Source: Proteinivorax hydrogeniformans (lineage in GTDB: Bacteria; Bacillota; Proteinivoracia; Proteinivoracales; Proteinivoracaceae). From it: a stretch of 64,000 nt of DNA. The translations under genes were made by a program, and so were the position numbers. Of this stretch, positions 5,008 through 63,550 are shown one piece after another. The stretch is from contig NZ_CP159485.1 in assembly GCF_040515995.1 (NCBI RefSeq), positions 434,001 through 498,000 on the forward strand, read 5' to 3'. The number at the start of each line of letters is the position of its first letter. The stretch's first letter is position 1. The notes beneath the pieces are model-generated. The model saw only the letters and a list, made by a program, of their open reading frames with translations. It was not told the origin of the DNA and made no database searches.

Positions 5008-5084
<77 letters not shown>

Positions 5085-5087
5085 TTA

Positions 5088-5163
5088 GGAGCTGTGGTGT
5101 AGTGGTTAACATGCCTGCCTGTCACGCAGGAGATCGCGGGTTCGACTCCCGTCAGCTCCGCCA
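5088..5163 (+). tRNA. tRNA-Asp (anticodon GTC)
   Basis: 76 nt with acceptor stem GGAGCTG/CAGCTCC, anticodon stem-loop CCTGCCTGTCACGCAGG, T-loop GTTCGACTC, discriminator G and encoded CCA. Confidence 0.97.
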
Positions 5164-5177
5164 TTTAAACTTAATAT

Positions 5178-5253
5178 GCCGACGTAGCTCAATTGGCAGA
5201 GCAGCTCACTTGTAATGAGCAGGTTGCGGGTTCGAGTCCCATCGTCGGCTCCA
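5178..5253 (+). tRNA. tRNA-Thr (anticodon TGT)
   Basis: 76 nt with acceptor stem GCCGACG/CGTCGGC, anticodon arm GCTCACTTGTAATGAGC, T-loop GTTCGAGTC and encoded CCA. Confidence 0.97.
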
Positions 5254-5256
5254 TTT

Positions 5257-5332
5257 GAGCCATTAGCTCAGTCGGTAGAGCACCTGACTTTTAATCAGGG
5301 TGTCCCGTGTTCGAATCGCGGATGGCTCACCA
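5257..5332 (+). tRNA. tRNA-Lys (anticodon TTT)
   Basis: 76 nt with acceptor stem GAGCCAT/ATGGCTC, anticodon arm CTGACTTTTAATCAG and encoded CCA. The T-stem CCGTG/CGCGG has one T-G wobble. Only 3 nt separate it from tRNA-Thr. Confidence 0.97.
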
Positions 5333-5335
5333 AGT

Positions 5336-5420
5336 GCGAGAGTGGTGGAACTGGCAGACACGCTAGACTTAGGATCTAGTGCCGCAAGGTGTGGGGGTTC
5401 GACTCCCCCCTCTCGCACCA
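5336..5420 (+). tRNA. tRNA-Leu (anticodon TAG)
   Basis: 85 nt class II tRNA with acceptor stem GCGAGAG/CTCTCGC, anticodon arm CTAGACTTAGGATCTAG, a variable arm TGCCGCAAGGTGT and encoded CCA. Last gene of the cluster. Confidence 0.97.
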
Positions 5421-5550: not shown

Positions 5551-8500
5551 TTATATCCTGCTTTTTCTTCTTATCTTTCTAGCTTTTTTAGTGCTATGTT
5601 TATTATACCCATTTAGCATATTAGGGTTATGAGCTTTTTTAGATTTAGCACTATCCACTGAAGGTATATTAAGTAGTTGTTGATTTGCTTCAGAACTAAT
5701 TTTAATTTCTGAGACGTCTGCACTTGGAGTTAAACCACCGGCTTTCTTTATTAATTCGCTTAAGGGCGTATCGTCCTTGATTGTATATTCGCCTGGCTTG
5801 TAAACTTCCCCTTCGATATATATGGTTAGGTCGCTGGATTTACTTTTGTTTTTTAAGGTAAATCTTTTTTCTTTGGGATCCCAGTTTATTAAGTTAAAAG
5901 GCCACCAATTGTATTCACCTAAAAACATAGCTACAGCCGGTATGAAAATAGGCAGTAGTATTAAGATATAAAACATCAATCCTATGATAATCCATGCTCC
6001 TATTTGCAATAGAGATAGCACTCCAGAAAGCATCATCGCTGCAAAGCTAGAAGCAAGGATTACTGCAGCGGAAAAAACTGCTGAACCCACTTTTTTCATA
6101 GCAGTAACCATGGCTGTTTTGATATTTTCTCTACTACGGACTTTATAATTCTGTATTTCCTCATTAAAACGTGCCATTAAAAATATAGAGTAATCTACAC
6201 CCATAGACATTAGCATAACAAAAGTAAAAAATGGAACGGACCACATAACTCCAGGATATCCAAGTCCATCGATAAAAATAAATTCCACTAAAGCATGGGA
6301 GGCGATGTAAGCTACGCCTAAAGACGCCATGGCGTAGATAGGCATCATAAAGGATTTGAATAGAACTGAAAGTACGATAAAAATACCGATAAGCATATAT
6401 ATTGATGTTCTGAAAAAATCTTCGCTAGAAAGCACTTTTAAGTCTCTGTTGTTGCTGGGAAGGCCATCGACTGCATACCGTGCTTCTTCATACGGCGTAC
6501 CTTTTAATGTGAAATCTGTTATTTCTTCTATTTCCCCCACAATCTCCATTGCTCGCATGCCATAGGGATTAGTATCACTTACAACTTGCAGCAGTACAAC
6601 TTCGTTGTTGGGGGTTGCGTAGTTATCCCAAGCTTTTTGTAACTGATCTGTGTAGATAGACTTTGGAATAAAGAATCCATCTAAAATATTTTCCGATTGG
6701 TCTTCTAGCTCAAAAAGGAAATCTTGCATTTCTTCCATACCAGTAAATAACTCTTCTAGTCCTTCATCTAACTGATCTAAGCCCTGCAAAAACTCCTCTA
6801 AACCTTTAAGTAGCTCGTCATATTGCTCTAAAAGTAGTTTTTGTCCTTGATGGACTTCAGAAAGTCCATCACTTAGCTCTTTAGAGCCAGAAGAGAGGTC
6901 GTCTAAGCCCTGAGACACCTCACTGAGACTATAAGTAAGCACTGCCATTTCATGAACTACTTCTTCAAAAAGCTCTAATATAGGGGTGAAAATCGAGCTG
7001 GATTGACCTGTTAGCTCTAAAAATTGATCGTGAATGCTGTCAGCTAAACTATAATAGCCTTCTGCGTCCTGGTAAGCTGATGCTACCTGCCAGGATATTT
7101 GCTCTACCCCTTGGTTTGTTTCTTTAATTCCTTGATGAAGGTCCTGTGCACCTTGCTTTGATTCATTAGTGCCGTCAATAAGCCTGAGTAAATCATCTTC
7201 GCCGGCCCTTAACTCATCTTTAGCATACCTAAGCTCAGAAGACATTTCAGACACTCCGCTTTTCATATCTCTGATGCCATCTAATACTTCATCAAGCTCA
7301 CCTGCTGCTTCTCCTGCTTGATAGGAAATCCTAAGTTCGTCGATTTTAAGGCCTTCCGGCCTTGTAATCGAGCGAACTTCTGTTACATCATCAATTTTTA
7401 AGAGGTTATCCGATAAGAGCTCTACATATGATACTCTTTGGGAATCATCCCAAGTAGGATCGTTAGCTTCTATTGTCAATATGTGATAAAAGAAGTCTCC
7501 TTCTCCAAACTTATCTTCTATAATCCTAAAGGCTTTTACAGACCCGTAATCATCATCAATCTCATCTAAGGAGTGAAAGGAACGCAGGTTGTCAAAACTG
7601 AGAAAAAGAGGTAGTACTATCACTAATAAGATTAGTAAACCTAAAGCTGGTTTGTTGGTGGCAAACTGACCGAGTTTTCCCCACAATTTGTGCTCGTTTT
7701 GTTGTTTGTTCAATTTAGCAGGCCAGAAAACCTTAGACCCGAACAAATTCAGTATAATAGGAACCCATACCCAAATAGCTAGGATAAGGGTAACTACCGC
7801 AACTGCTACGCCAACCCCTGATTGATAGAGATTAAAATTTGCAAGTCCGATAGCTAAAAAACCTACAAACCCTGTAAAAGCGCTAGATAAAACAGCTCCT
7901 TGTGTTAATTTAAAGGTTCTTTTTACGGTGCTATAGTCATCGCTCCCATTAGCTAACTCTTCTCGATATCTGGTCATCAGCAGTATTACATAATCTGTAC
8001 CTATAGCAAAGGTTACGGTTAGCACGAAAACCTGAGAAAAGTTAGAAACGGGAAAGTTAAGGTTGTCAATTAACAAGGAAACGATTGATATACTCAAATA
8101 GTAGGACGAACCCAAAGTAATTAACGGCACCAAAGGCGCTATAGGTGAGCGAAATACTGCTAGCAGCACTATGTACACTAAAGCAACTGTCAGATACTCG
8201 ATAGCTCCTAGGCGTTCCTCTGTTGTGCTTAAAACATCATCTTCGATAATAGCAGCACCAGTGATATAACTGGTTAATCCTTTGATGCTAGTTTTGTCCT
8301 GCAGCTCATCGCGAATAAAGGAGATTTCTGCAGTAGTCATGTCCAACTCAACTACCGCTAGTAAAATGTTCTCTGACTCATCAACTAAAAGGTTTCTTTG
8401 CTGCTCTCCGTCAAAGGGGGTGATGATATCGTGGACTTTAATATCACCAGGGTCTTCTTTGAACTTATCTAATGTTTTTTCTATTTGGTCTTCATGCTGC

Positions 8501-9140: not shown

Positions 9141-9866
9141 TTAACCTTGCTTCATTAACGCATGCTTCTTTCTGTGGCTTTCTCTATCGAAAAATAATAA
9201 GTGTGAATGATGAACTAATCGGTCAATTATTGCTACTGTTAACTTCTCGTCAAACAAGAAATTTTTCCAGTGGTTAAACTCCATATTAGTAGTAATTATG
9301 ATGCTTTTTCGTTCATAGCAAAGACTGATAACTTCAAATAAAAGCCTAGCTCCCTCTTGATGTAGAGGCAAATAGCCCCATTCGTCTAATATTAATAAGT
9401 CAGCTTTTTCTATCTTCTTCATTAACTTTTCATGAGAATGTTCTTCTTTAGCCTTCACTAATTCATTAATCAGGGAGTGTACTGTGTAAAAGAGAACAGA
9501 CTTCTGATTATTGATTGCCATGGTTCCAAGAGCAATACCTAAATGCGTTTTACCAGCGCCAGGTCCACCATAAAAGATTAGATTCTCCTTGTTTTCAATA
9601 AAGTTAAGTCCTTTTAACTGTTCTATTGTTAGCTTTTCAGGGAAAATAATATCTGTAAAGTCATAGCCATTTAAGGTTTTTACTACTGGAAATTTAGCAG
9701 CTTTCAATTTCCTTTCTCGGCTTCTTTCTAATCTTTCTTTATACAGCTCTTCAAGTAAATCCATTAAAAATTGTTCTTTAGATCTAAACTCAAGTCCGTC
9801 ACATATATCCATTAGCGAATTGGATATGCTCAGTTTTTTTTGGTAAAATTTAATTTTATCTATCAT
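9141..9866 (-). CDS. istB: IS21-family helper ATPase IstB
   Basis: A 241-residue AAA+ ATPase related to DnaC that assembles on target DNA and stimulates the IstA transposase. Walker A is GGPGAGKTHLG (about 99-109) and Walker B is LLILDEWGYLP. The family sensor segment IIITTNMEF follows. Length is normal. The ATG has GGGAGG upstream inside the end of istA, and the two genes overlap by 11 bp, the usual coupled IS21 arrangement. Confidence 0.96.
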   Translation of the reverse strand: MIDKIKFYQKKLSISNSLMDICDGLEFRSKEQFLMDLLEELYKERLERSRERKLKAAKFPVVKTLNGYDFTDIIFPEKLTIEQLKGLNFIENKENLIFYGGPGAGKTHLGIALGTMAINNQKSVLFYTVHSLINELVKAKEEHSHEKLMKKIEKADLLILDEWGYLPLHQEGARLLFEVISLCYERKSIIITTNMEFNHWKNFLFDEKLTVAIIDRLVHHSHLLFFDRESHRKKHALMKQG

Positions 9867-11364
9867 CTCTCATTCCTCCCATAAGTGAGTTGTAGGATTC
9901 TGCACTGATGTCATAGTCTGGGAGGCGAGGTAAAGCAGGGGGTGATTGAATTTGGTGGTAAACGGAGACATCCTCTGTAAGACGGTAGTAAGTTGTCCAT
10001 AAAGCAGCAGTTTCTTTAACAGATTTCCTTATGTTTTCAGCTAAAACCTTCTCCGCAAATGCCATACCTTTTTCAAGTAAGCACATTTTTAAAAACTTTA
10101 GACTTTGTTTTAAATCCTCATTATCCATTTCATTTGTATACGACTTCCAATTATCCGGAAGTAAAGAGTAAAACCCTGAATATTTTAATGCTCTTGGTCT
10201 TGCTGCGATAACGTCGATAAAGTCCATCCAATGTGTAGATTTTCTGCCCTTTTCAAAAAGCCTGTTATGCCTTGTTATCTCACGATAGTCTTTATCATAA
10301 ATCACCAACTCGTTAGCAAGAATTTTTACCCATACATAACTGCCTACATACTTAGGCGAAACAGAGTATGAGCAATGATCATTAATTATATACCCTAGTT
10401 TATTGACCCTTCTCTTTTCAAATTTTCCATAGTCAAAGTCTATCTTAGTTGTGGTCTTCATAAGCTCAGTCTCTTTTATAAATATCTCATTTATTGTCCC
10501 TGGTTCTTTGTAATGACTTCTCTGATTATCCTCGGAACATCGATTAAGCAGGTCAAAATTGTACTTTTCTAAGTCACTGATTTCTGGTTCTGGCACAAAA
10601 AGGTTTTTTCGAAAGTAACCTACTTTTTTTTCAACATTACCTTTTTCGTTGCCACTATCAGGGTTGCAAAACACTGGCTCAAAGCCATAATGGAGGGCTA
10701 ATCGTGCAAATCTCTCTGTCATAACTGGCTGCCCTTTAGAATCTTTTTTTCTAATACAAGCAGCTGCCATTTGGTCAAACCATATTTTGTTTGGGGTAAA
10801 GCTAATATATTTAAATATGTTAATCAAAGCTTCACATAAAGCCTCCATGGTCTCACTACGAGTAACTTGGCAAAACCCAGCATTGCTTTTAGGGAAGGAA
10901 AGCACAAGCTCATGGGCTTTTTTCTTAGTGCCATTTTCGACAATATATATTTCTCCAAAATCAACTTGAGCTTCTCCACCAGGGTGATCTAGACCAAGAT
11001 GACAATCGTCAGTGTTGTAGACCTTTTGCTTTTCTTCTTTTACTAAAGTTCGCATTGTCCGCTCAGAAATCAGATATTTATCAGGACGTTCTACCTTTAA
11101 TCTCTCATGTATTTTCTTGGCAGTATGTCGATATTTCTTCTTTTTATCCTTATCTTCTTCTAGTATTTCTCTGACATAGGGTCTGATCAAGTCCGATTTT
11201 GTTGGACCGGATTTTTTCTTAGGCTTTACATTAAAATCTTCTTTTTCTAAGTACTTTTTAATTGTGCGATAATTATGACCAGTGCGTCGTTCTATTTCAG
11301 AATAACTTAGGCCTTTCTCAAAATACATTTTTCGTATATAATTTAATTGAGTAATTGTCAGCAC
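9856..11364 (-). CDS. istA: IS21-family transposase IstA
   Basis: A 502-residue DDE transposase. An N-terminal helix-turn-helix (ITQLNYIRKMYFEKGLSYSE...RTIKKYL) precedes an rve core with acidic residues in EAQVDFGEIYIV, KIWFDQMAA and GNEKGNVEKKVGY, and a C-terminal Mu-type beta-barrel region. The GTG at 11364 is chosen because homologues begin M-L-T-x-T-Q-x-N and GGGGGAAAGG lies just upstream; the frame is open to 11427, but that N-terminal extension is unlike the family. Confidence 0.94.
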   Translation of the reverse strand: MLTITQLNYIRKMYFEKGLSYSEIERRTGHNYRTIKKYLEKEDFNVKPKKKSGPTKSDLIRPYVREILEEDKDKKKKYRHTAKKIHERLKVERPDKYLISERTMRTLVKEEKQKVYNTDDCHLGLDHPGGEAQVDFGEIYIVENGTKKKAHELVLSFPKSNAGFCQVTRSETMEALCEALINIFKYISFTPNKIWFDQMAAACIRKKDSKGQPVMTERFARLALHYGFEPVFCNPDSGNEKGNVEKKVGYFRKNLFVPEPEISDLEKYNFDLLNRCSEDNQRSHYKEPGTINEIFIKETELMKTTTKIDFDYGKFEKRRVNKLGYIINDHCSYSVSPKYVGSYVWVKILANELVIYDKDYREITRHNRLFEKGRKSTHWMDFIDVIAARPRALKYSGFYSLLPDNWKSYTNEMDNEDLKQSLKFLKMCLLEKGMAFAEKVLAENIRKSVKETAALWTTYYRLTEDVSVYHQIQSPPALPRLPDYDISAESYNSLMGGMRDDR

Positions 11365-11481
11365 ATCCTTTCCCCCTTTTAAGTTGTGGTCACTTAAAAG
11401 GATATATTGATTGGATTGTACTGGCAATTACTTTTTGTATTTTTGACGGCCATTTATTGTATTTTTACTTTACCATAAACA

Positions 11482-12041: not shown

Positions 12042-12202
12042 TAAATCCCCCTATAATCAAGTTTTACCGCAGGTTAACTGGCTGTAAGCCCCCACTGATT
12101 GAAGTTTGACTTTACTAATTAAATTAGACACTATCATAATTATTTTGAAATTTCAACCTCTTTTTAAAAAAACAACAGTTATAAAAACGCCTATTAAAAA
12201 AT

Positions 12203-13258
12203 ATTAAGCCCCAAACTGGGTCAGGGCGCGAAGAAGGCTCCAGATTCCCAGCACAAAAAAACACAGCGCCGGAGCGTATAACTAACACGAGGCAAACTGT
12301 AGGTTTTGAATTAACCAAGCAGTTTGGGTTTTATTATTAAAAAGAAGTAGGTTTTATCTTTACCAAAGAATTTATTTTTATTAAGGATATTAAGCCCCAA
12401 ATGGGTCAGGGCGCGAAGAAGGCTCCAGATTCCCAGCACAAAAAACACAGCGCTGGAGCGTATAACTAACACGTGGCAAACTGTAGGTTTTGAATTAACC
12501 AAGCAGTTTGGGTTTTATTATTAAAAAGAAGTAGGTTTTATCTTTACCAAAGAATTTATTTTTATTAAGGGTATTAAGCCCCAAACTGGGTCAGGTCGCT
12601 AAGGAGGTTTTAGATTCTCGGCACATAAAAACCACAGCCCCGGAGCGTATAACTAACACGTGGCAAACTGTAGGTTTTGAACTAACCAAGGAGTTTGGGT
12701 TTTATTATTAAAAGAAATATGTTTTATCTCTAACCCAAAGCAATTATTTTTAGGTTTCAAGACCCAAACTGGGTCAGGGCGCTAAGAAGGTCCCAGATTC
12801 GCGGCGCAAAAAAACCTCAGCACCGGAGCGTATAACTAACACGAGGCAAACTGTAGGTTGTGAATTAACTAAGGAGTTTGGTCTTATTATTAAAAAGAAG
12901 TAGGTTTTATCAATTTATTTTTATTAATGTATTAGACCCAAACTGGGTCAGGGCGCTAAGAAGGTCTCAGATTCGCGGCGCAAAAAAACCTCAGCGCCGG
13001 AGCGTATAGTTAATACGTGGTAAACTGTAGGTTTTGAATTAACTAAGGAGCTTGGGTCTTATTATTAAAAAGAAGTAGGTTTTATCTCTAACCAAAGCTT
13101 TTTTTTACTAAGGTTTAAAACCCAAACTGGGTCAGGGCGCTAAGAAGGTTCCAGATTCGCGGCGCGAAAAAACCTCAGCGCCGGAGCGTATAAATAATAC
13201 GTGACTAGCTGAGGTTTTTGAAGCAACAAAGAAGATGGGGCCTTATTAGCGCCCTGAC
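12203..13258. repeat. Tandem array of six structured repeats (period 174-185 bp)
   Basis: The landmark GGGTCAGG recurs at 12218, 12403, 12588, 12771, 12945 and 13129, giving periods of 185, 185, 183, 174 and 184 bp. Each unit can fold: an outer stem of the type AAGCCCCAAACTG/CAGTTTGGGTTTT, an inner stem GGCGCT/AGCGCC, and a conserved loop with CGTAT...ATACG. The last unit is bounded by a perfect 13-bp inverted repeat (GTCAGGGCGCTAA 13131-13143; TTAGCGCCCTGAC 13246-13258) whose final base lies in the MFS stop codon, and holds AAAAACCTCAGC/GCTGAGGTTTTT. No credible protein is encoded on either strand. Related to the array at 46689-47035. Confidence 0.9.
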
Positions 13259-14586
13259 TAGAGGGATTTAATCTCTTTTATCTTACTCATAAAAAAAGTC
13301 AAAACAACCATGATAACCCCACAAGAAAACGGTAATATCCATGGACTAACCAAGTCCACCAACGCCCCGGCAACCACCGCTCCAATTGGTGATAATCCTA
13401 TCGCCAAAGTTCCTAAAGCGCCATACACTCTTCCTAGCTTATCGTTAGGCACAAGCTTTTGCATGGTAACCGTTACTGGCACATTAATAAATATAGATGA
13501 AACCGCCATCGCCAAATATAAAAATGTAAGAACTATAAGGTACTGAACGTTTGAAAGCATTATTAGATCCGATGCAACTATACCTGCTAGCAAAATCATT
13601 ACCGAAAAGGTTAAAATACAGCTCATAATTCTTCTGTAGTTACTTTTTGCTTGGGGAAGCTGGGCAAGTATAAGAGAACCTAGTAGCATACCGGCGGGAA
13701 ACATCATACTTAAAATCCCATATTGTTGTGGAGTAAAGCCCCAAACTTGGTTTGCCATGTACGGAATAGGAACGGTTAGACCTATCATTATAAACAAGTT
13801 GAAAAATACTACAAAAAGACCGAATACAATGAGCCATTTTTGGCTAATCATATATTTTACCCCATCAACTAAATCTACAATAAAAGTTTTTTTAAGTTTA
13901 TCTGATGCACGCTCTTTAGGTACATCACTTGTTTTTTCCTTTTTACCGCAAAGCTTATCCCTTAAATTAAAGTCGATAAAACTTTCAGATATGCCCGAGA
14001 AGATAAATGACAATCCGTTTATGAGCAAAAATAGGTGGATGTTAACTAATGCAAAAATAAACCCACCAATGAAAGGTCCGGCAATTGTAGCTATGGAGTC
14101 AGCAGACTGACTTAAAGAATTAGCTCTAGTTAGATTTTTATCATCTACTATATTAGGGATAGAGGCTGTCAGTGGGGTGTTAAAAAATGTACTACAAGTT
14201 GACAATAAAAATGTAGCTATATAAATATAGACTAATCTTAACTCACCAATCAAACCTACAGCCAATAAAACCATCATTATAAACCCTGACAAGATATCCA
14301 GACTCACCACTAGTTTCTTTCTATCAAAGCGATCAGCTACCACCCCAGAAACTGCGCCAAAAACTACTCTGGGCACAGTAGAGATTGCTAAATTTAACGA
14401 AAAACTTAACCCTGAACCTGTTACCTGTAAAATGTAAAGACTCATAGCAAAACTATAGATGCTGCTTCCTAACAATGAAACTAGCTTGCCCGCAATCAGC
14501 AGGGCGATGTTTGTTTTTACAATTTTGTTAGCCTTTTTTTCGTCAATGTTTAATTCCGGGCTAACTGCTGTTGCTGTTGTACTCAT
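13258..14586 (-). CDS. MFS efflux transporter
   Basis: A 442-residue major facilitator with 12 predicted helices, of the MFS_3/EntS-macrolide-efflux type. The N-half carries the family loop GVVADRFDRKKLVVSLD after helix 2, and a long cytoplasmic linker (KKEKTSDVPKERASDKLKK) lies in the centre. Probable drug or metabolite exporter of the inner membrane; substrate unknown. RBS AGGAGG lies 9 nt before the ATG. It is 97 bp downstream of an ECF-like sigma factor gene on the same strand, which may control it. Its stop codon abuts the tandem repeat array, so the array forms its 3' region. Confidence 0.88.
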   Translation of the reverse strand: MSTTATAVSPELNIDEKKANKIVKTNIALLIAGKLVSLLGSSIYSFAMSLYILQVTGSGLSFSLNLAISTVPRVVFGAVSGVVADRFDRKKLVVSLDILSGFIMMVLLAVGLIGELRLVYIYIATFLLSTCSTFFNTPLTASIPNIVDDKNLTRANSLSQSADSIATIAGPFIGGFIFALVNIHLFLLINGLSFIFSGISESFIDFNLRDKLCGKKEKTSDVPKERASDKLKKTFIVDLVDGVKYMISQKWLIVFGLFVVFFNLFIMIGLTVPIPYMANQVWGFTPQQYGILSMMFPAGMLLGSLILAQLPQAKSNYRRIMSCILTFSVMILLAGIVASDLIMLSNVQYLIVLTFLYLAMAVSSIFINVPVTVTMQKLVPNDKLGRVYGALGTLAIGLSPIGAVVAGALVDLVSPWILPFSCGVIMVVLTFFMSKIKEIKSL

Positions 14587-28659: not shown

Positions 28660-30900
28660 AATGAATGGTGAACAGAACCATAGTTGAACAATAGTTAAAC
28701 AATAGTTATAACTGTGTTTTTCCAAAAATACGTGCAACAAACGCAAAGCCAAGGGACAAGGGGGACTGGTATGCTGTACCATCGATTCCCAATGGGACTG
28801 CCGTACCTGTCCCCTCTGTCCCGAAGATGGATAGCACCCACTGATAACCCTAATTGACTGTAGGGGAGCAGTCTCCTGCTCCCGCACCTAACGTCCGCGG
28901 TCTAAAGCGGATAGCTACTGCAATCCCTAACTGGTATCAAGTCCAGACCCCGATGGACTGTACCATGCACTGCAAATGCAGGGGTCGGTCTTTTAAAATT
29001 ACCTTTCTTGAACTGTAGAAAGTTAATTTTGACAGGCTGACCCCAGACCCTACAAAACCTAATTGGCCACGAAAACGTATAAATAAGCTACATGCTGGGA
29101 CTAGGATCTAAAGATTTGAAATACTGAACTGATGCTGGGTCTGAAACCCAAAATGATGCTTCAAATGACAAAACCAAGATGGTACCCCCTCAGTAAATGG
29201 TCAGCGAATATGGCCGGTCTTGAATATGTCAGTTCAGGATTAGCATATATTTCCGGGTTTGTAAGAAGCCTAAGCTGTTTCTCCACATGTGGGACAGCTT
29301 TAACTTTGAGTCGACATTGTCATGTCTCTGATATTAATGGAAGCGAGCTCAAAGCCAAATCTTTACCCACAGGGAGAAAAGACGCCGCCTTCAATCAAAC
29401 CCTCCAATATATAGCAAATCCTTCAGCAGAGGGGAAAGCACCAAATGATGACCCAATCATAAAAACCAAGGGACAAGGGGGACTGGTATGCTGTACCATC
29501 GATTCCCAATGGGACTGCCGTACCTGTCCCCTCTGTCCCGAAGATGGATAGCACCAACTGATAACCCTAATTGACTGTAGGGGGGCAGTCTCCTGCTCCC
29601 GCACCTAACGTCCGCGGTCCAAAGCGGACAGCTACTGCAATCCCTAACTGATTTCAAATCCAGACCCCAATGGACTGTACCAAGCACCGCAAATGCAGGG
29701 GTCGGTCTTTTAAAATTACCTTTCTTGAACTGTAGAAAGTTAATTTTGACAGGCTGACCCCAGACCCTACAAAACCTAATTGGCCACGAAAACGTATAAA
29801 TAAGCTACATGCTGGGACTAGGATCTAAAGATTTGAAATACTGAACTGATGCTGGGTCTGAAACCCAAAATGATGCTTCAAATGACAAAACCAAGATGGT
29901 ACCCCCTCAGTAAATGGTCAGCGAATATGGCCGTTCTTGAATATGTCAGTTCAGGATTAGCATATATTTCCGGGTTTGTAAGAAGCCTAAGCTGTTTCTC
30001 CACATGTGGAACAGCTTAGGCTTTGAGTCGACATTGTCATGTCTCTGATATTAATGGAAGCGAGCTCAAAGCCAAATCCTTACCCACAGGGAGAAAAGAC
30101 GCCGCCTTCAATCAAACCCTCCAATATATAGCAAATCTTTCAGGAAGTGAAAACCCCAAATGATGACCCAATCATAAAAACCAAGGGACAATGGGGACTG
30201 GTATGCTGTACCATCGATTCCCAATGGGACTGCGTACCTGTCCCCTCGTCCCGAAGATGGATAGCAGCAACTGATAACCCTAATTGACTGTAGGGGAGCA
30301 GTTTCTGCTCCCGCACCTAACGTCCGCGGTCCAAAGCGGACAGCTACTGACGTCCCAAATTGGTATCAAATCCAGACCCCGATGGCCAAAATGCAGGGGT
30401 CGGTCTTTTAAAATTACCTTTCTTGAACTGTAGAAAGTTAATTTTGACAGGCTGACCCCTGACCCTAACAAAACCTAATTGGCCACGAAAACGTATAAAT
30501 AAGCTACATGCTGGGACTAGGATCTAAAGATTTGAAATACTGAACTGATGCTGGGTCTGAAACCCAAAGTAGCTTGTCATTGTGAACGAAGTGAAGAATC
30601 TATGAACTTAAATATGTCAGTTCAGGATTAGCAATATATTTCCGGGTTTGCACGTAGGGGAGCAGTCTCCTGCTCCCGCACCTAACGTCCGCGATCCAAA
30701 GCGGACAGCTACTGCAGTCCCAAGTTGGTATCAAATCCAGACCCCGATGGGCTGTTTCTCCACATGTGGGACAGCTTTAACTTTGAGTCAACGCTGAACA
30801 ATAGTTAAACAATCGTTGAACCATCGTTAAAAAGGATGGATTGATTTGGAGCCAGCATGTAGCCAATATCGTATTCTTTACCGCGGCCAGGTAGCAGGTA
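28660..30900. repeat. Modular repeat block with a 716-bp tandem triplication
   Basis: No gene in 2.4 kb. Near-identical copies begin at 28751, 29468 and 30183 (periods 717 and 715 bp), the third shortened and rearranged. Each contains the same modules in order: a 70-bp hairpin GGGACAAGGGGGACTGG...CCCCTCTGTCCC (28753-28822, 29470-29539, 30185-30252); GGGAGCAG/CTGCTCCC plus GTCCGC/GCGGAC hairpins; a 64-bp hairpin GGGGTCGGTC...GGCTGACCCC (28981-29044, 29698-29761, 30396-30459); a GGCCACGAAAACGTATAAAT segment; and, in the first two copies, AAGCTGT/ACAGCTT around CCACATGTGG. Short 11-bp repeats (GTTGAAC/GTTAAAC type) occur near 28675-28705 and 30788-30830. A fragment of module order recurs at 30650-30780. 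Confidence 0.9.
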
Positions 30901-33399: not shown

Positions 33400-33494
33400 C
33401 ACAGCGGACGCGACGGTCATACCGCAGGAAAAATCCTTTCGTCTGTAGGCTACATCCCATCCCACAGCACTTAACGCATGACGTCTACTCTGCC
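33399..33494 (-). promoter_or_regulatory. Tetrahydrofolate (THF) riboswitch
   Basis: On the minus strand the leader of folT reads GGCAGAGTAGACGTCATGCG, then TTAAGTG, GGGATGGGATGT, GACGAAAGG, TGCGGTATGACC and CGCGTCCGCTGTG. These match the conserved blocks of the folate-sensing THF riboswitch (AGAGUAG, GCGUUAAGUG, GGGAUGGGAUGU, CGAAAGG, GGU, UCCGCU) in order. It should lower expression of folT and the following gene when folate is plentiful. Confidence 0.92.
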
Positions 33495-34618: not shown

Positions 34619-34672
34619 TTTTAAAAAAGTTTTTGCAAAGTTTAGCAAGTTCTGATAGGATTAAAGGGAATA

Positions 34673-34753
34673 GCTGAACAGTAGTTGAACGATGGTTGAA
34701 CAGTGGTTGAACAGTAGTTAAACAGTAGTTAAACCATAGTTAAACAATCGAGA
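34673..34753. repeat. 11-bp tandem repeats (GTTGAACAGTA type)
   Basis: Seven consecutive 11-mers: GCTGAACAGTA, GTTGAACGATG, GTTGAACAGTG, GTTGAACAGTA, GTTAAACAGTA, GTTAAACCATA, GTTAAACAATC. The period equals about one DNA turn. Beyond it, to 35003, are a TCATTCTGAACGCAGTGAAG motif (34819 region), short pieces of the dispersed repeats and the pepF leader, with no gene. Confidence 0.85.
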
Positions 34754-35003
34754 AACCCGTTGCTTCACACCGATTTTAAACTACTGCTTAACAGTTGTTA
34801 ATGGCCTTTAGTGCTTTGTCATTCTGAACGCAGTGAAGAATCTGTGGTTTTATGGTTAGGGTTTCCTGTCCAACTGGCCAACTGTCTGCTGTCCAACTGA
34901 ACTTATCCATTGTGAATTGTAAATTTGATTTTACTAGAAAGTAGTATTCATTAGCTCTTAAAGAGCTATGGGATAAATATTTTAAATAAGTGGAGGGATA
35001 GTT

Positions 35004-46342: not shown

Positions 46343-46672
46343 ATGTATAAATGCACTGTTTGTAACTACCTAAATACAGAAGATGAAGCCCCAGAAAAAT
46401 GTCCCAAATGTGGAGCGCCACAAGAAAAGTTTGAAAAGCTAAAAAAGGAACACGTAGATAAAATAACCAGAAGCCGTCAAACAAACTACCTTTTAAAAGA
46501 TTTAATCACATCCATGGAAACAATAAATGACATAGCAGATCAAGGCATCGACGATGACCTAGACCCAGGCTGTAGAAAATTATTCACTGAAGCCAAAGAA
46601 AGCGCAGAATTCTTGCGCCAAACTGCTATGGCGGAGATTGAGAATCATATAGGTAAGGGTAAGTGGGGCTAA
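46343..46672 (+). CDS. Rubredoxin-domain protein with helical tail
   Basis: A 109-residue protein: an N-terminal rubredoxin-type iron site (YKCTVCNYL...PEKCPKCGAPQEKFEKL) followed by about 70 helical residues (NYLLKDLITSMETINDIADQ). It overlaps functionally with rubrerythrin and is the second gene of its operon, so it probably passes electrons to it or binds it. RBS AAAGGAGG precedes the ATG. Confidence 0.85.
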   Translation: MYKCTVCNYLNTEDEAPEKCPKCGAPQEKFEKLKKEHVDKITRSRQTNYLLKDLITSMETINDIADQGIDDDLDPGCRKLFTEAKESAEFLRQTAMAEIENHIGKGKWG

Positions 46673-46688
46673 CACAGCCGAGCGGCTG

Positions 46689-47035
46689 CTTATAAGCACC
46701 TATCTTCGTTGTTGCAAAAAAAATCCCAGACTCCTCACGTATTACATATACGCTGCGGGCCTGGGATTTTTTAGCGCCTAGAATCTAGGCACTTCTAAGC
46801 AGCCTTGGTGGGGTCGATAAGCGCCTGACTTCGTTGTTGCAATTAGCGCCCCAGACCAGTCACGTATTATATATACGCTCCCGCCCTGCGTCGCAAATTG
46901 CGCCTAGAATCTAGGCACTTCTAAGCAGCCTTGGTGGGGTCGAATAAGCGCCTGCCTTCGTTGTTGACAAAAAATCCCAGACTCCTCACGTATTACATAT
47001 ACGTTGTGGGTCTGGGGTTTTTTAACGCCCTAGAA
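46689..47035. repeat. Second tandem array of the structured repeat (period 125-126 bp)
   Basis: CACGTATTA-N-ATATACG recurs at 46736, 46861 and 46987. Each core is enclosed by a stem of different sequence: AAAAAATCCCAG (46718-46729)/CTGGGATTTTTT (46761-46772); GCAATTAGCG (46839-46848)/CGCAAATTGC (46892-46901); AAAAAATCCCAGAC (46969-46982)/GTCTGGGGTTTTTT (47010-47023). Between cores lies GCGCCTAGAATCTAGGCACT, then TCTAAGCAGCCTTGG, and ATAAGCGCCTGMCTTCGTTG. The complement of the 12.2-13.26 kb array shares the core and the GCGCC..GAATCT...TTCTtAGC segment. The remaining gap to 47189 has only a CCCC/GGGG hairpin near 47056-47085. Confidence 0.88.
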
Positions 47036-51839: not shown

Positions 51840-53700
51840 ACTATAGTAACGTATAACGGTAGATGTAGACGAACAGTAGTTTAACAATAGTTGAACAGTA
51901 GTTGAACAGTAGTTGAACGATAGTTAAACCATTGTTAAACCATCGTCAAATGCTGACCCCAACGACAAAACCAAGGGACAAGGGGGACTGGTATGCAGTC
52001 CCATCGTTTTCCAATGGGACTGCCGTACCTGTCCCCTCTGTCCCGAAGATGGATAGCCCCAATTAATACCGCAACTGATGACCCCAATTGACTGTAGGGG
52101 AGCAGCACTACTGCTCCCGCACCTAACGTCCGCGGGCTAAAGCGGACAGTTACTGAGGTCCCAAACTGGTATTAAATCTAGACCCCGATGGCCCAAATGC
52201 AGGGGTCGGCCTTTTAAAATTACCTTTCTTGAACTGTAGAAAGTTAATTTTGACAGGCTGACCCCAGCCCCCACTGGTTTTATTCCCCGGGGTAGCAAAA
52301 GAAGAAGTTAGAAATTATATCTCTAGGTCAAAAATTCCAAAACCTAATTGGCCGCGAAAACGTATAAATAAGCTACATGCTGGGACTAGGATCTAAAGAT
52401 TTGAAATACTGAACTGATGCTGGGTCTGAAACCCAAAATGATGCCCCAAATGAAAAATCAAAATGGCACCTTCTCGAAGAGGTATGGGGCGACCTCAGTG
52501 TCGCCCATCAGTAGATGGCCAGCGAAAATGGCCAGGTTTAAATAGGTAGTTAAACGATAGTAAAACGATAGTTAAACCATTGTTCAACCATTGTTAAACT
52601 ATCGTTAAAAACTTTACCGTGGCCAATTAGGTTTTAGCATTTGGCAGTTAGCAGGTGGTAAAAGCAAATACTGCCAGGCAGAACAAACCGCTCTTGATAT
52701 CCTGTCCAACTAACCAACTAACCAACTAACCAACTGACTGCTGTATCTAGCACCGTCAGTTCAGGATTAGCATATATTTCCGGGTTTGTAGGGGAGCAGT
52801 ACCTGCTCCCGCACCTAACGTCCGCGCCCCAAAGCGGACAGCTACTGAGGTCCTAAACTGGTATCAAATCATGACCCCGATGGACTGTTTCTCCACATGT
52901 TCGACACCTTTAACTTTGAGTCGACGCTGAACAATAGCTGAACAATCGTTGAACCATTGTTAAACAATTGTTGAACCATCGTTAAAAACGTTACCGTGGC
53001 CAATTAAGGTTTTAGCATTTAGCAGGTAGCAGATGCTCTGCCAACGGGACTCTGACCTTAATTGTCAATTGTAAGTTGAATGGAAGCGAGCTCAAAGTCA
53101 AAGCCTTACTCACAGGGAGAAAAGACGCCGCCTTCAATCAAACCCTCCAATATATAGCAAATCCTTCAGCAGAGGAAAAACCCAAATGACAAAACCAAGG
53201 GACAAGGGGGACTGGTATGCTGTACCATCGTTTTCCAATGGGACTGCCGTACCTGTCCCCTCTGTCCCGAAGATGGATAGCCCCAATTAATACCCTAACT
53301 GATGACCCCAATTGACTGTAGGGGAGCAGTGTCTGCTCCCGCACCTAAAGTCCGCGGGCTAAAGCGGACAGCTACTGTAATCCATAACTGGTATCAAATC
53401 TAGAACCCGATGGCCCAAATGCAGGGGTCGGTCTTTTAAAATTATCTTTCTTGAACTGTAGAAAGTTAATTTTGACAGGCTGACCCCAGACCCCACAAAC
53501 CCAAATTGGCCGCGAAAACGTACTGTGTCAACCCATCAGCAATTGGCTAGCCAATATGGCAATGACCACCAAAACTTCGCTGTTACTAGGGGCATAGGAT
53601 GTTATGTTCTTTGTTACCAACTTCCGACCTCAAATTACTTATTACCACTACTCATGTAACCAATATCGTAATCTTTACCGTGGCTAATTAGTATTTAGTA
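51840..53700. repeat. Modular dispersed-repeat block
   Basis: No gene in 1.9 kb. It has 11-bp repeats of GTTGAAC/GTTAAAC type (51868-51945, 52545-52610, 52925-52990); 70-bp GGGACAAGGGGGAC hairpins (51975-52044, 53199-53268); 64-bp GGGGTCGG/CTGACCCC hairpins (52202-52265, 53424-53487); three GGGAGCAG/CTGCTCCC modules; GGCCGCGAAAACGTATAAAT; and about four copies of the 8-mer CCAACTAA (52704-52738). The modules are the same as at 28.7-30.9 and 62.2-63.6 kb but in other orders. The hairpin at 51975 pairs better (GCAGTCCCA/TGGGACTGC) than its relatives. Confidence 0.9.
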
Positions 53701-55229: not shown

Positions 55230-55319
55230 TGATGACGAAAAAGCAAAATAGATATAATCTATGGAATTACTTGACGCAATATATTCATTTCGATTAGACT
55301 ATACTTACAATAAAAAATT

Positions 55320-55416
55320 CTTATCGAGAGTGGTGGAGGGAAGGGCCCGATGAAACCCGGCAACCTAACTTGTGGTGCTAAATCCCACAGAGTTTTTTTA
55401 TGCTCTGAAAGATAAG
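55320..55416 (+). promoter_or_regulatory. SAM-I riboswitch (S-box) upstream of metK
   Basis: CTTATC...GATAAG closes the aptamer (P1). Within it are the S-box blocks GAGAGTGGTGGAGGGAAGGG, CCCGATGAAACCCGGCAACC, a GTGGTGCTAAATCC segment and the final AAAGATAAGAG. When SAM is abundant it should shut down metK. Confidence 0.97.
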
Positions 55417-55423
55417 AGCCAGT

Positions 55424-62242: not shown

Positions 62243-63412
62243 TTAGGCAGGTACCAAATCCAGACCCAATGCACCCCCTCGAAGAGGTAGGGGGCGACCT
62301 CCGCGAAGGCCCCATCAGTAGATGGCCAGCGAATATGGAGTGTTTATGGTAAAGTGCAAATGCAGGGGTCAGTCTTTTAAAATTACCTTTCTTGAACTGT
62401 AGAAAGTTAATTTTGACAGGCTGACCCCACACCCCAAGTGAGAAGTGAGACTTTAGAAGTGGGCAAAAAGAAAAAGCCTAAAACAGCAAGACGCCCCAAC
62501 TAATGACCCAAATGACTGTAGGGGAGCAGTACCTGCTCCCGCACCTAACGTCCGCGGTCTAAAGCGGACAGCTACTGACGTCCCAAATTTGTATCAGATC
62601 CAGACCCCGATGGACCAACTCCCCATTCACCGTCAGTTCAGGATTAGCAATATATCTCCGGGTTTGTAAGAAGCCTAAGCTGTTTCTCCACATGTAGGAC
62701 ACCTTTAACTTTGAGTCGACATTGTCATGTCTCTGATGTTAATGGAAGAGAGCTCAAAGTCAAAGCCTTACTCACAGGGAGAAAAGACGCCGCCTTCAAT
62801 CAAACCCTCCAATATATAGCAAATCCTTCAGCAGAGAAACCAAACAAAACTCTTGTGTCATCGAAGAGGGGGAAATTCAAAGATGCCAAAGATGCCCCAA
62901 TTGATGACCCCAAATGATGACCCCAAATGATGACCCCAACTGACTGTAGGGGAGCAGCTCCACTGCTCCCGCACCTAACGTCCGCGGTCTAAAGCGGACA
63001 GCTACTGCGATCCCTAACTGGTATCAAATCCAGACCCCTATGACAAAACCAAGGGACAAGGGGGGACTGGTATGCTGTACCATCGGTTCCCAATGGGACT
63101 GCCGTACCTGTCCCCTCTGTCCCGAAGATGGGAAGACCAAGATGGCACCCCCTCGAAGAGGTAGGGGGCGACCTTAGTGTCGCCCTATCAGTAGATTGCC
63201 AGCTAATATGGTCAGGTTTAAATAGGTAGATTTAACAATCGTCAAACAATTGTTTAACAATTGTTAAACAATTGTTAAACAATTGCTAGACCATCGTTAA
63301 AAACCGGGTCATTCCCAAATACCGGCAAAAACTGAACGGGTTTGGACCCAGCATGTAACTAATTTCGTAATCTTTACCGTGGCTAATTAAGGTTTTTGCC
63401 CTTGATCTCCTG
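62243..63412. repeat. Modular dispersed-repeat block inside the yvrJ cluster
   Basis: No gene. It contains a 64-bp hairpin GGGGTCAGTC...GGCTGACCCC (62365-62428), two GGGAGCAG/CTGCTCCC modules with GTCCGCGGTCTAAAGCGGAC hairpins (from 62521 and 62949), the AAGCTGTTTCTCCACATGT segment, a 70-bp hairpin (63053-63123) and 11-bp GTTAAACAATT-type repeats (63225-63302). It parts yvrJ from the sigma factor and DUF genes. Confidence 0.9.

Positions 63413-63550
<138 letters not shown>

Follow-up and report, generated by a model that had tools for sequence, protein, structure and literature searches.

Locus and tandem array

The window, that is, the whole stretch of 64,000 nucleotides that was analysed, carries a tandem array at the 3' end of a gene for an MFS transporter. 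It also holds a cluster of five tRNA genes (5008-5420, +), an IS21-type istA/istB pair (9141-11427, -), a THF riboswitch (33400-33494, -) and a SAM riboswitch (55318-55418, +). Tandem Repeats Finder (TRF) gave a single strong array at 12202-13218, with a period of 184 bp, 5.6 copies, 86% matches and a score of 1380. Repeat search and alignment resolved it into six units over 12202-13258, spaced by 174-187 bp, in agreement with the six-copy array described in the first-pass annotation. No protein appears to be encoded there, as had also been stated, with no ORF of at least 80 aa inside the array. The MFS transporter has 442 aa, and its stop codon, TAG, lies at 13258-13260 on the minus strand, where unit 6 ends. 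The features of the locus are listed below, together with their matches to R1, a covariance model built on 23 copies of the element.

12202-12386, + strand: array unit 1, decayed copy with a linker of ~60 nt; no R1 match (TRF, repeats, alignment)
12387-12570, + strand: array unit 2, decayed copy; R1 match at 12416-12519, 30.3 bits
12571-12754, + strand: array unit 3, decayed copy; R1 match at 12596-12715, 39.2 bits
12755-12928, + strand: array unit 4, decayed copy; R1 match at 12783-12889, 34.6 bits
12929-13112, + strand: array unit 5, the least decayed among units 1-5; R1 match at 12957-13064, 53.0 bits
13131-13258, + strand (AGCGTA...TACGTGA strand): array unit 6, complete hairpin; R1 match at 13132-13257, 116.6 bits
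13131-13158, + strand: unit 6, left outer arm (82% complementarity with 13231-13258; inverted repeat I5)
13182-13205 (limits approximate), + strand: apical core of unit 6, GGAGCGTATAAATAATACGTGA; reverse-strand pattern match at 13186-13203
13231-13258, + strand: right outer arm of unit 6, reaching the MFS stop codon (inverted-repeat search)
13258-14586, - strand: MFS transporter gene facing into the array (ORF; TIGR00900-like, under the TIGR00900 cut-off)

Unit 6 folded into one long imperfect hairpin of ~125 nt (-74.8 kcal/mol, z -9.7 to -10.2). Its terminal inverted repeat, GTCAGGGCGCTAA / TTAGCGCCCTGAC, touches the stop codon of the MFS gene, just as the first-pass annotation had it. Units 1-5 behaved differently. 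On the + strand their folds were no more stable than those of dinucleotide-shuffled sequences (z -0.7 to +2.1), and with the previously proposed outer stem included the range was -2.1 to +0.25. On the minus strand the signal was weak (z -0.75 to -2.0), except for unit 5 at -5.0. The idea of a structure conserved throughout the array thus applies to unit 6 (z about -10) and not to units 1-5, for which the + strand gave hardly any fold signal or none. In the alignment, the right-arm terminus GCGCCCTGAC was replaced by linker in units 1-5, and the rest of the right arm had diverged; the sequences of units 1 and 2 were near-identical. The paired change quoted earlier for the outer stem (AAACTG/CAGTTT against AAACT/AGCTT) turned out to be one-sided and not compensatory. 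Units 3-6 all have the left arm CCCAAACTGGG, and the variation is confined to the right arm, leading to an A.C mismatch in unit 5.

A dispersed hairpin family

BLAST with one array unit as query revealed nine additional sites in the 2.83-Mb genome, and the core CACGTA-N-TACGC occurred there 40 times, compared with 4 occurrences of the reversed control pattern. The copies that were read were mostly hairpins of ~125 nt sharing one anatomy:

outer arms: CCAGAC.GCTTAGAAGTGCCTA / TAGGTGCTTATAAGC.GTCTGG
irregular internal loop: GATTCTAGGCG / CAACAACGAAGA
inner stem: variable
apical core: GGAGCGTAT..ATACGTGA

Model R1 matched 51 times in this genome, 30 times in a genome of the same genus and 21 times in another genus of the family, counts that include a few copies counted on both strands. 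Searches of Rfam 15 at gathering and permissive thresholds gave nothing credible over the element and no match above the gathering score, in line with the earlier remark that no described element matches. The array had also been linked to units near 46.7 kb, and this link was confirmed by three family members in tandem:

46679-46807, - strand: complete family member; R1 120.3 bits; fold z -6.6; 7 nt past the stop of the ORF at 46343-46672
46809-46933, - strand: second tandem copy, terminal arm truncated; R1 86.3 bits
46934-47051, - strand: third tandem copy, terminal arm truncated; R1 56.4 bits

Several loci had such an organization, with a full terminal arm in the gene-proximal copy, and each distal copy starting after ...GCTT|ATAAG (gene sense). 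Because all gene-distal copies start at this same point, the arrays have one breakpoint in common, which points to a putative amplification from a fixed point within the terminal arm. The array beside the MFS gene was likewise arranged, with a flank of ~60 nt carried within the unit. It is an ordinary local tandem amplification, mostly decayed, that goes back to a single copy of the dispersed ~125-nt hairpin; units 1-5 are decayed copies amplified jointly with the ~60-nt flank, by-products of the amplification.

Arrays of similar spacing were found elsewhere, in the genomes G033 (185 bp), G196 (182 bp), G071 (175 bp) and G022 (148 bp). In G033, four tandem core-bearing hairpins, exactly 185 bp apart, lie in an operon for a thiamine-type ABC transporter (G033:473600-474176, positions 5602-6177 of locus L105). 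The core motif is present in them, yet they matched neither R1 nor R2, a second model built on 27 sequences; the array may be a divergent member of the family.

Other repeats were recorded alongside. A subfamily of the hairpin sits inside a larger repeat whose long flanks are conserved (GTAACCATATAAGGAGACCCAAATGG ... AACTCCGTAGCCCAGAAGTAAATGACAAACCCTGAACTGACC) and is clustered in this genome (G000) at 953-956 kb, 1117-1120 kb, 1630-1635 kb, 1651-1654 kb and 1945-1947 kb. A degenerate 11-bp repeat (AACAATAGTTG-like, period 11/22) forms several intergenic arrays in the window, at 28676-28708, 34669-34757, 51871-51943, 52547-52609, 52928-52986 and 63234-63301; its motif also flanks the element at G000:211504. 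At 63413-63547 there is a near-perfect 8-bp tandem repeat of ACCAACTA with 16.9 copies, and a shorter array of the same unit lies at 52706-52735.

Covariation and strand preference

In the family fold, 23 of 36 pairs showed two-sided changes and 92.7% of cells were paired. None of 500 shuffles attained any of these measures, structures slid along the alignment fell to 33-45%, and the picture was unchanged with six families. A de novo fold by RNAalifold on 30 diverse sequences had 29 pairs, 24 of them with two-sided changes; the invariance of its core pairs is partly due to selection of the loci, since most were retrieved by a pattern that fixes the core. Covarying pairs are therefore present far above the background of shuffled and slid structures and, as judged from this base-pair conservation, the family fold is under selection. 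The selection on structure proposed in the first-pass annotation thus holds for the dispersed ~125-nt hairpin, and not for the tandem unit as such.

Inner stems were swapped as matched pairs between copies. In the orthologous copies at 211504 and G001:203371 (G001 being the sister genome), the outer arms were 97% and 83% identical, and the inner arms 47% and 50%. Because inner stems are exchanged in this way, a paired change need not mean base-by-base selection.

Among the copies of the own lineage, the non-Watson-Crick pairs read on the AGCGTA strand comprised 79 G.U and 2 A.C, or 26 and 2 when three fixed wobble positions were left out. This asymmetry could partly stem from a few shared ancestral wobble pairs. 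In the own genome the AGCGTA...TACGTGA strand is antisense to the adjoining gene, so the selected fold is there not that of the mRNA.

Position at stop codons and empty orthologous sites

In 24 of the 42 loci of G000 and its sister G001, the right end of the element was at most 16 nt from the stop codon of a gene facing into it. Random intergenic placement would give 1.8 such loci, with a maximum of 9 in 200,000 simulations. The left end was at a stop codon in none of the 42. The remaining 18 loci were away from stop codons, and about nine of these exceptions belong to the subfamily embedded in the larger repeat. ORFs were called mechanically (at least 90 aa), and single distances between element and stop codon may be off for this reason. 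The stop codon was often provided by the element itself, as CCA GAC AGC TTA TAA or CTA GGC TGC TAA.

Some sites occupied in one species were empty in relatives at the orthologous position. At these sites without the element, homology stopped at the stop codon or a few codons from it:

1722716: PTPS* vs PTP|SDR*
2227815: SEFL* vs SEFM|LGC*
2579069: KLK* (G002) vs LEK|SDSL*
735798: KMFVIK* or KMFLI* vs KMF|PDCL*

At 1947130 / G001:983796 both species were occupied, the two copies lying at different points of one gene end and differing in their inner stems. The site 214172 (glmS by similarity) had a copy in G000, an apparently decayed one in G001 and none in G003. Some copies were kept at the same gene across species and genera (735798 and G002; glmM). 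The gene-side junction was clear, and the flanks on the far, downstream side were too diverged to fix the left boundary for recognizing a target-site duplication; no new insertion or target duplication was seen in the genomes compared.

Distribution across bacteria

The family is not confined to one strain, as covariance-model matches were obtained both in relatives and in other phyla. Within the own phylum, R2 had matches in 51 of 399 sampled genomes, from many families, for which the 8 best candidates of each genome were scored. A pattern scan over named GTDB genomes supplied at least 52 loci, and in 52 of these R2 matched 42 times at E <=0.01, the E-values of both models being rough. Among the matches listed were the labels Deltaproteobacteria, Nitrospira, Acidobacteria, Spirochaetia and Eisenbacteria, as well as Aegiribacteria, Planctomycetota, Clostridium and Sporomusa. 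Because many carriers are metagenome-assembled, individual phylum labels may be wrong; isolates are also among the carriers. In 23 such genomes, R2 matches ranged from 2 to 121 per genome, with 121 in G410, 33 in Geobacter sp. AOG1, 28 and 35 in two Nitrospira and 17 in Sporomusa sp. KB1.

In Sporomusa and G410, the element often occupied the whole gap between consecutive genes, in both orientations. Copies also directly adjoined the 5' end of a tmRNA gene in Nitrospira (L376, ~1950) and that of a tRNA gene in Sporomusa (L364, ~1980). Behind the array stands a real family of hairpin repeats at gene ends, with a conserved structure and a very wide distribution.

Origin of the array and possible mobilisers

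The array is probably a local tandem expansion of a dispersed, non-autonomous hairpin of ~125 nt that resembles mobile elements of the REP/MITE kind and sits at gene 3' ends. In favour of this reading are the 40 core matches against 4 for the reversed control, the copy numbers in the three related genomes, the covariation, the convergent stop codons at 24 of 42 loci, the empty orthologous sites where homology breaks off at or near the stop, the 79:2 ratio of G.U to A.C on one strand, the swapping of inner stems in pairs, the common tandem breakpoint and the decayed fold of units 1-5. Against it count the absence of a transposase or autonomous relative among the candidates searched, the lack of any observed new insertion or target duplication, the diverged downstream flanks, and the 18 loci away from stop codons, although most of the latter lie within a larger repeat. 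The element would be copied as DNA, its AGCGTA...TACGTGA strand presumably being recognised as a folded single strand, which tolerates G.U but not A.C pairs. One copy beside the MFS gene would have been amplified in tandem, with units 1-5 as decayed by-products.

A host regulatory hairpin of the 3'-UTR (mRNA stabiliser, terminator or modulator of translation termination), selected as such and spread by recombination between copies without transposition, would also account for the position at stop codons, for loops and a fold conserved across phyla, for the copies kept at the same gene between species or genera, and for the lack of any mobiliser among the candidates searched. We consider it unlikely, since in the own genome selection acts on the strand antisense to the mRNA, the element occurs either way round in Sporomusa and other genomes, a terminator-like T-tract is found in 16 of 62 copies only, many orthologous genes lack the element, and copies adjoin tRNA and tmRNA genes too. 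It is very improbable that the array itself is under selection for a six-fold structure, working as a multi-unit RNA or as an array that binds protein. The retention of six units and the tandem members elsewhere (at 46.7 kb in the window, in G022 and G196, and the four G033 copies) would suit such a role, but five of the units are without fold and terminal arm, and units 1 and 2 are as alike as a recent duplication would predict.

Two kinds of machinery were considered for the copying. Movement by a RAYT (Y1 HUH) transposase, as for REP/REPIN-type elements, is quite improbable here, despite several points in its favour. The own genome has RAYT genes, a decayed RAYT-like Y1 transposase gene (G000:215525-215773, locus L077) lies at most 1.3 kb from three copies, RAYTs occur in 31 of 51 element-positive genomes of the phylum compared with 147 of the 348 others, and REPs share the stop-codon position and tandem clustering (PMC3733652). 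Against it, intact RAYTs had no element at their flanks, except for one copy 0.7 kb from the RAYT of G002, and their inverted repeats were unrelated to the element, the G002 RAYT having its own pair, GGGGTCAGGCTTGAAG. The element also has no GTAG or CGTC tag. Y1_Tnp was missing from 10 of 28 element-positive genomes, among them G410 (121 matches), a Nitrospira with 35, Geobacter sp. AOG1 (33) and G148 (listed as 100% complete). Because of such copy-rich genomes without a detectable Y1 transposase, the element is not a RAYT-driven REP, and RAYT/Y1 mobilisation was rejected as a general rule. A retro-element, whose RNA from the AGCGTA strand would be reverse-transcribed into nicked gene ends, would fit the folding favoured on that strand and the greater precision of the gene-side end; it is scarcely probable, and the RVT_1 version was rejected, with no RVT_1 reverse transcriptase in the own complete genome, its sister or several copy-rich carriers. 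No autonomous transposon with the same arms or ends was present among the loci fetched. For the dispersed mobile-element-like hairpin, mobilisation by host recombination, by another transposase or with past help from a lost element is possible.

Taken further, the data allow the tentative proposal, on balance still doubtful, of one hitherto unrecognised ~125-nt hairpin family, found under at least eight bacterial phylum labels, with copy numbers that reach 121 or more in a genome, at gene ends, and copied via one folded strand by machinery other than a RAYT/Y1 transposase or an RVT_1 reverse transcriptase of the same genome. Genomes with several different phylum labels share the internal loops, the apical stem and the position at gene ends, and no Rfam family covers them. 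Unless mis-binned metagenome contigs have produced this pattern, the element ranks beside REPs as a common stop-codon hairpin. It offers a concrete test of how hairpins spread and of their effects on translation termination and mRNA 3' ends.

Function at gene ends

According to PMC12306157, which cites earlier work, E. coli REPs at most 15 nt from the stop codon reportedly affect translation termination. By analogy, a hairpin 0-13 nt past the stop codon, or overlapping it, would probably influence how translation terminates or how the mRNA 3' end is formed. A general role as intrinsic terminator was rejected. At least five T after the inner stem, in mRNA sense, were found in only 16 of the 62 copies, most of them thus lacking the U-tract of an intrinsic terminator, and a terminator scan over the array gave 1 site against 2.0 expected, which is chance level. 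The multi-step terminator suggested in the first-pass annotation was thus not borne out as a general function.

Comparison with known systems

The element was compared with the REPs that carry a GTAG or CGTC tag (Di Nocera et al. 2013, PMC3733652) and with REPINs (PMC3116915). Like REPs, BIMEs and REPINs, it is dispersed, high-copy, hairpin-forming and intergenic, mainly 3' of genes. The ends of REPs, too, often provide the stop codon, and REP clusters are reiterated in tandem together with flanking DNA (PMC3733652). The element is longer (~125 nt, compared with 20-40 nt for REPs) and has conserved irregular internal loops and an apical stem. In the alignments read it lacks the GTAG/CGTC tag of REPs, its ends being CCAGAC/GTCTGG here and different elsewhere, and many of its copy-rich genomes have no RAYT, in contrast to the REP/REPIN systems.

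With MITEs it shares the short, non-coding sequence, the inverted-repeat arms and the many copies; it differs in its conserved internal structure with covariation, and none of the fetched loci held a parental insertion sequence that shares its ends. Some left ends (...TGGGTCAGGG...) resemble the GGGGTCAGGCTTGAAG repeat of the G002 RAYT and so recall TIRYTs, the TIRs of RAYT-like transposases with the motif GGGGWSAS (PMC3733652). This likeness is confined to ~8 nt, and the other end of the element has no matching inverted copy.

In the open-access literature, where a described family was sought, only a multicopy RNA of Geobacter came close. It is a 24-copy 'predicted short RNA element' of Geobacter metallireducens, the Gmet_R1005 family (Aklujkar et al. 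2009, PMC2700814), which is intergenic and multicopy, like the element, and is described there solely as a Geobacter RNA near lysine/arginine genes. Its central palindrome, given there as GRCGTAGCGCTGCTACGCC, reads GGCGTAGCAGCGCTACGYC when reverse-complemented and fits the element core GGCGTA..TACGTC. By this comparison of core consensus sequences, the Gmet_R1005 short RNA probably belongs to the same family as the element.
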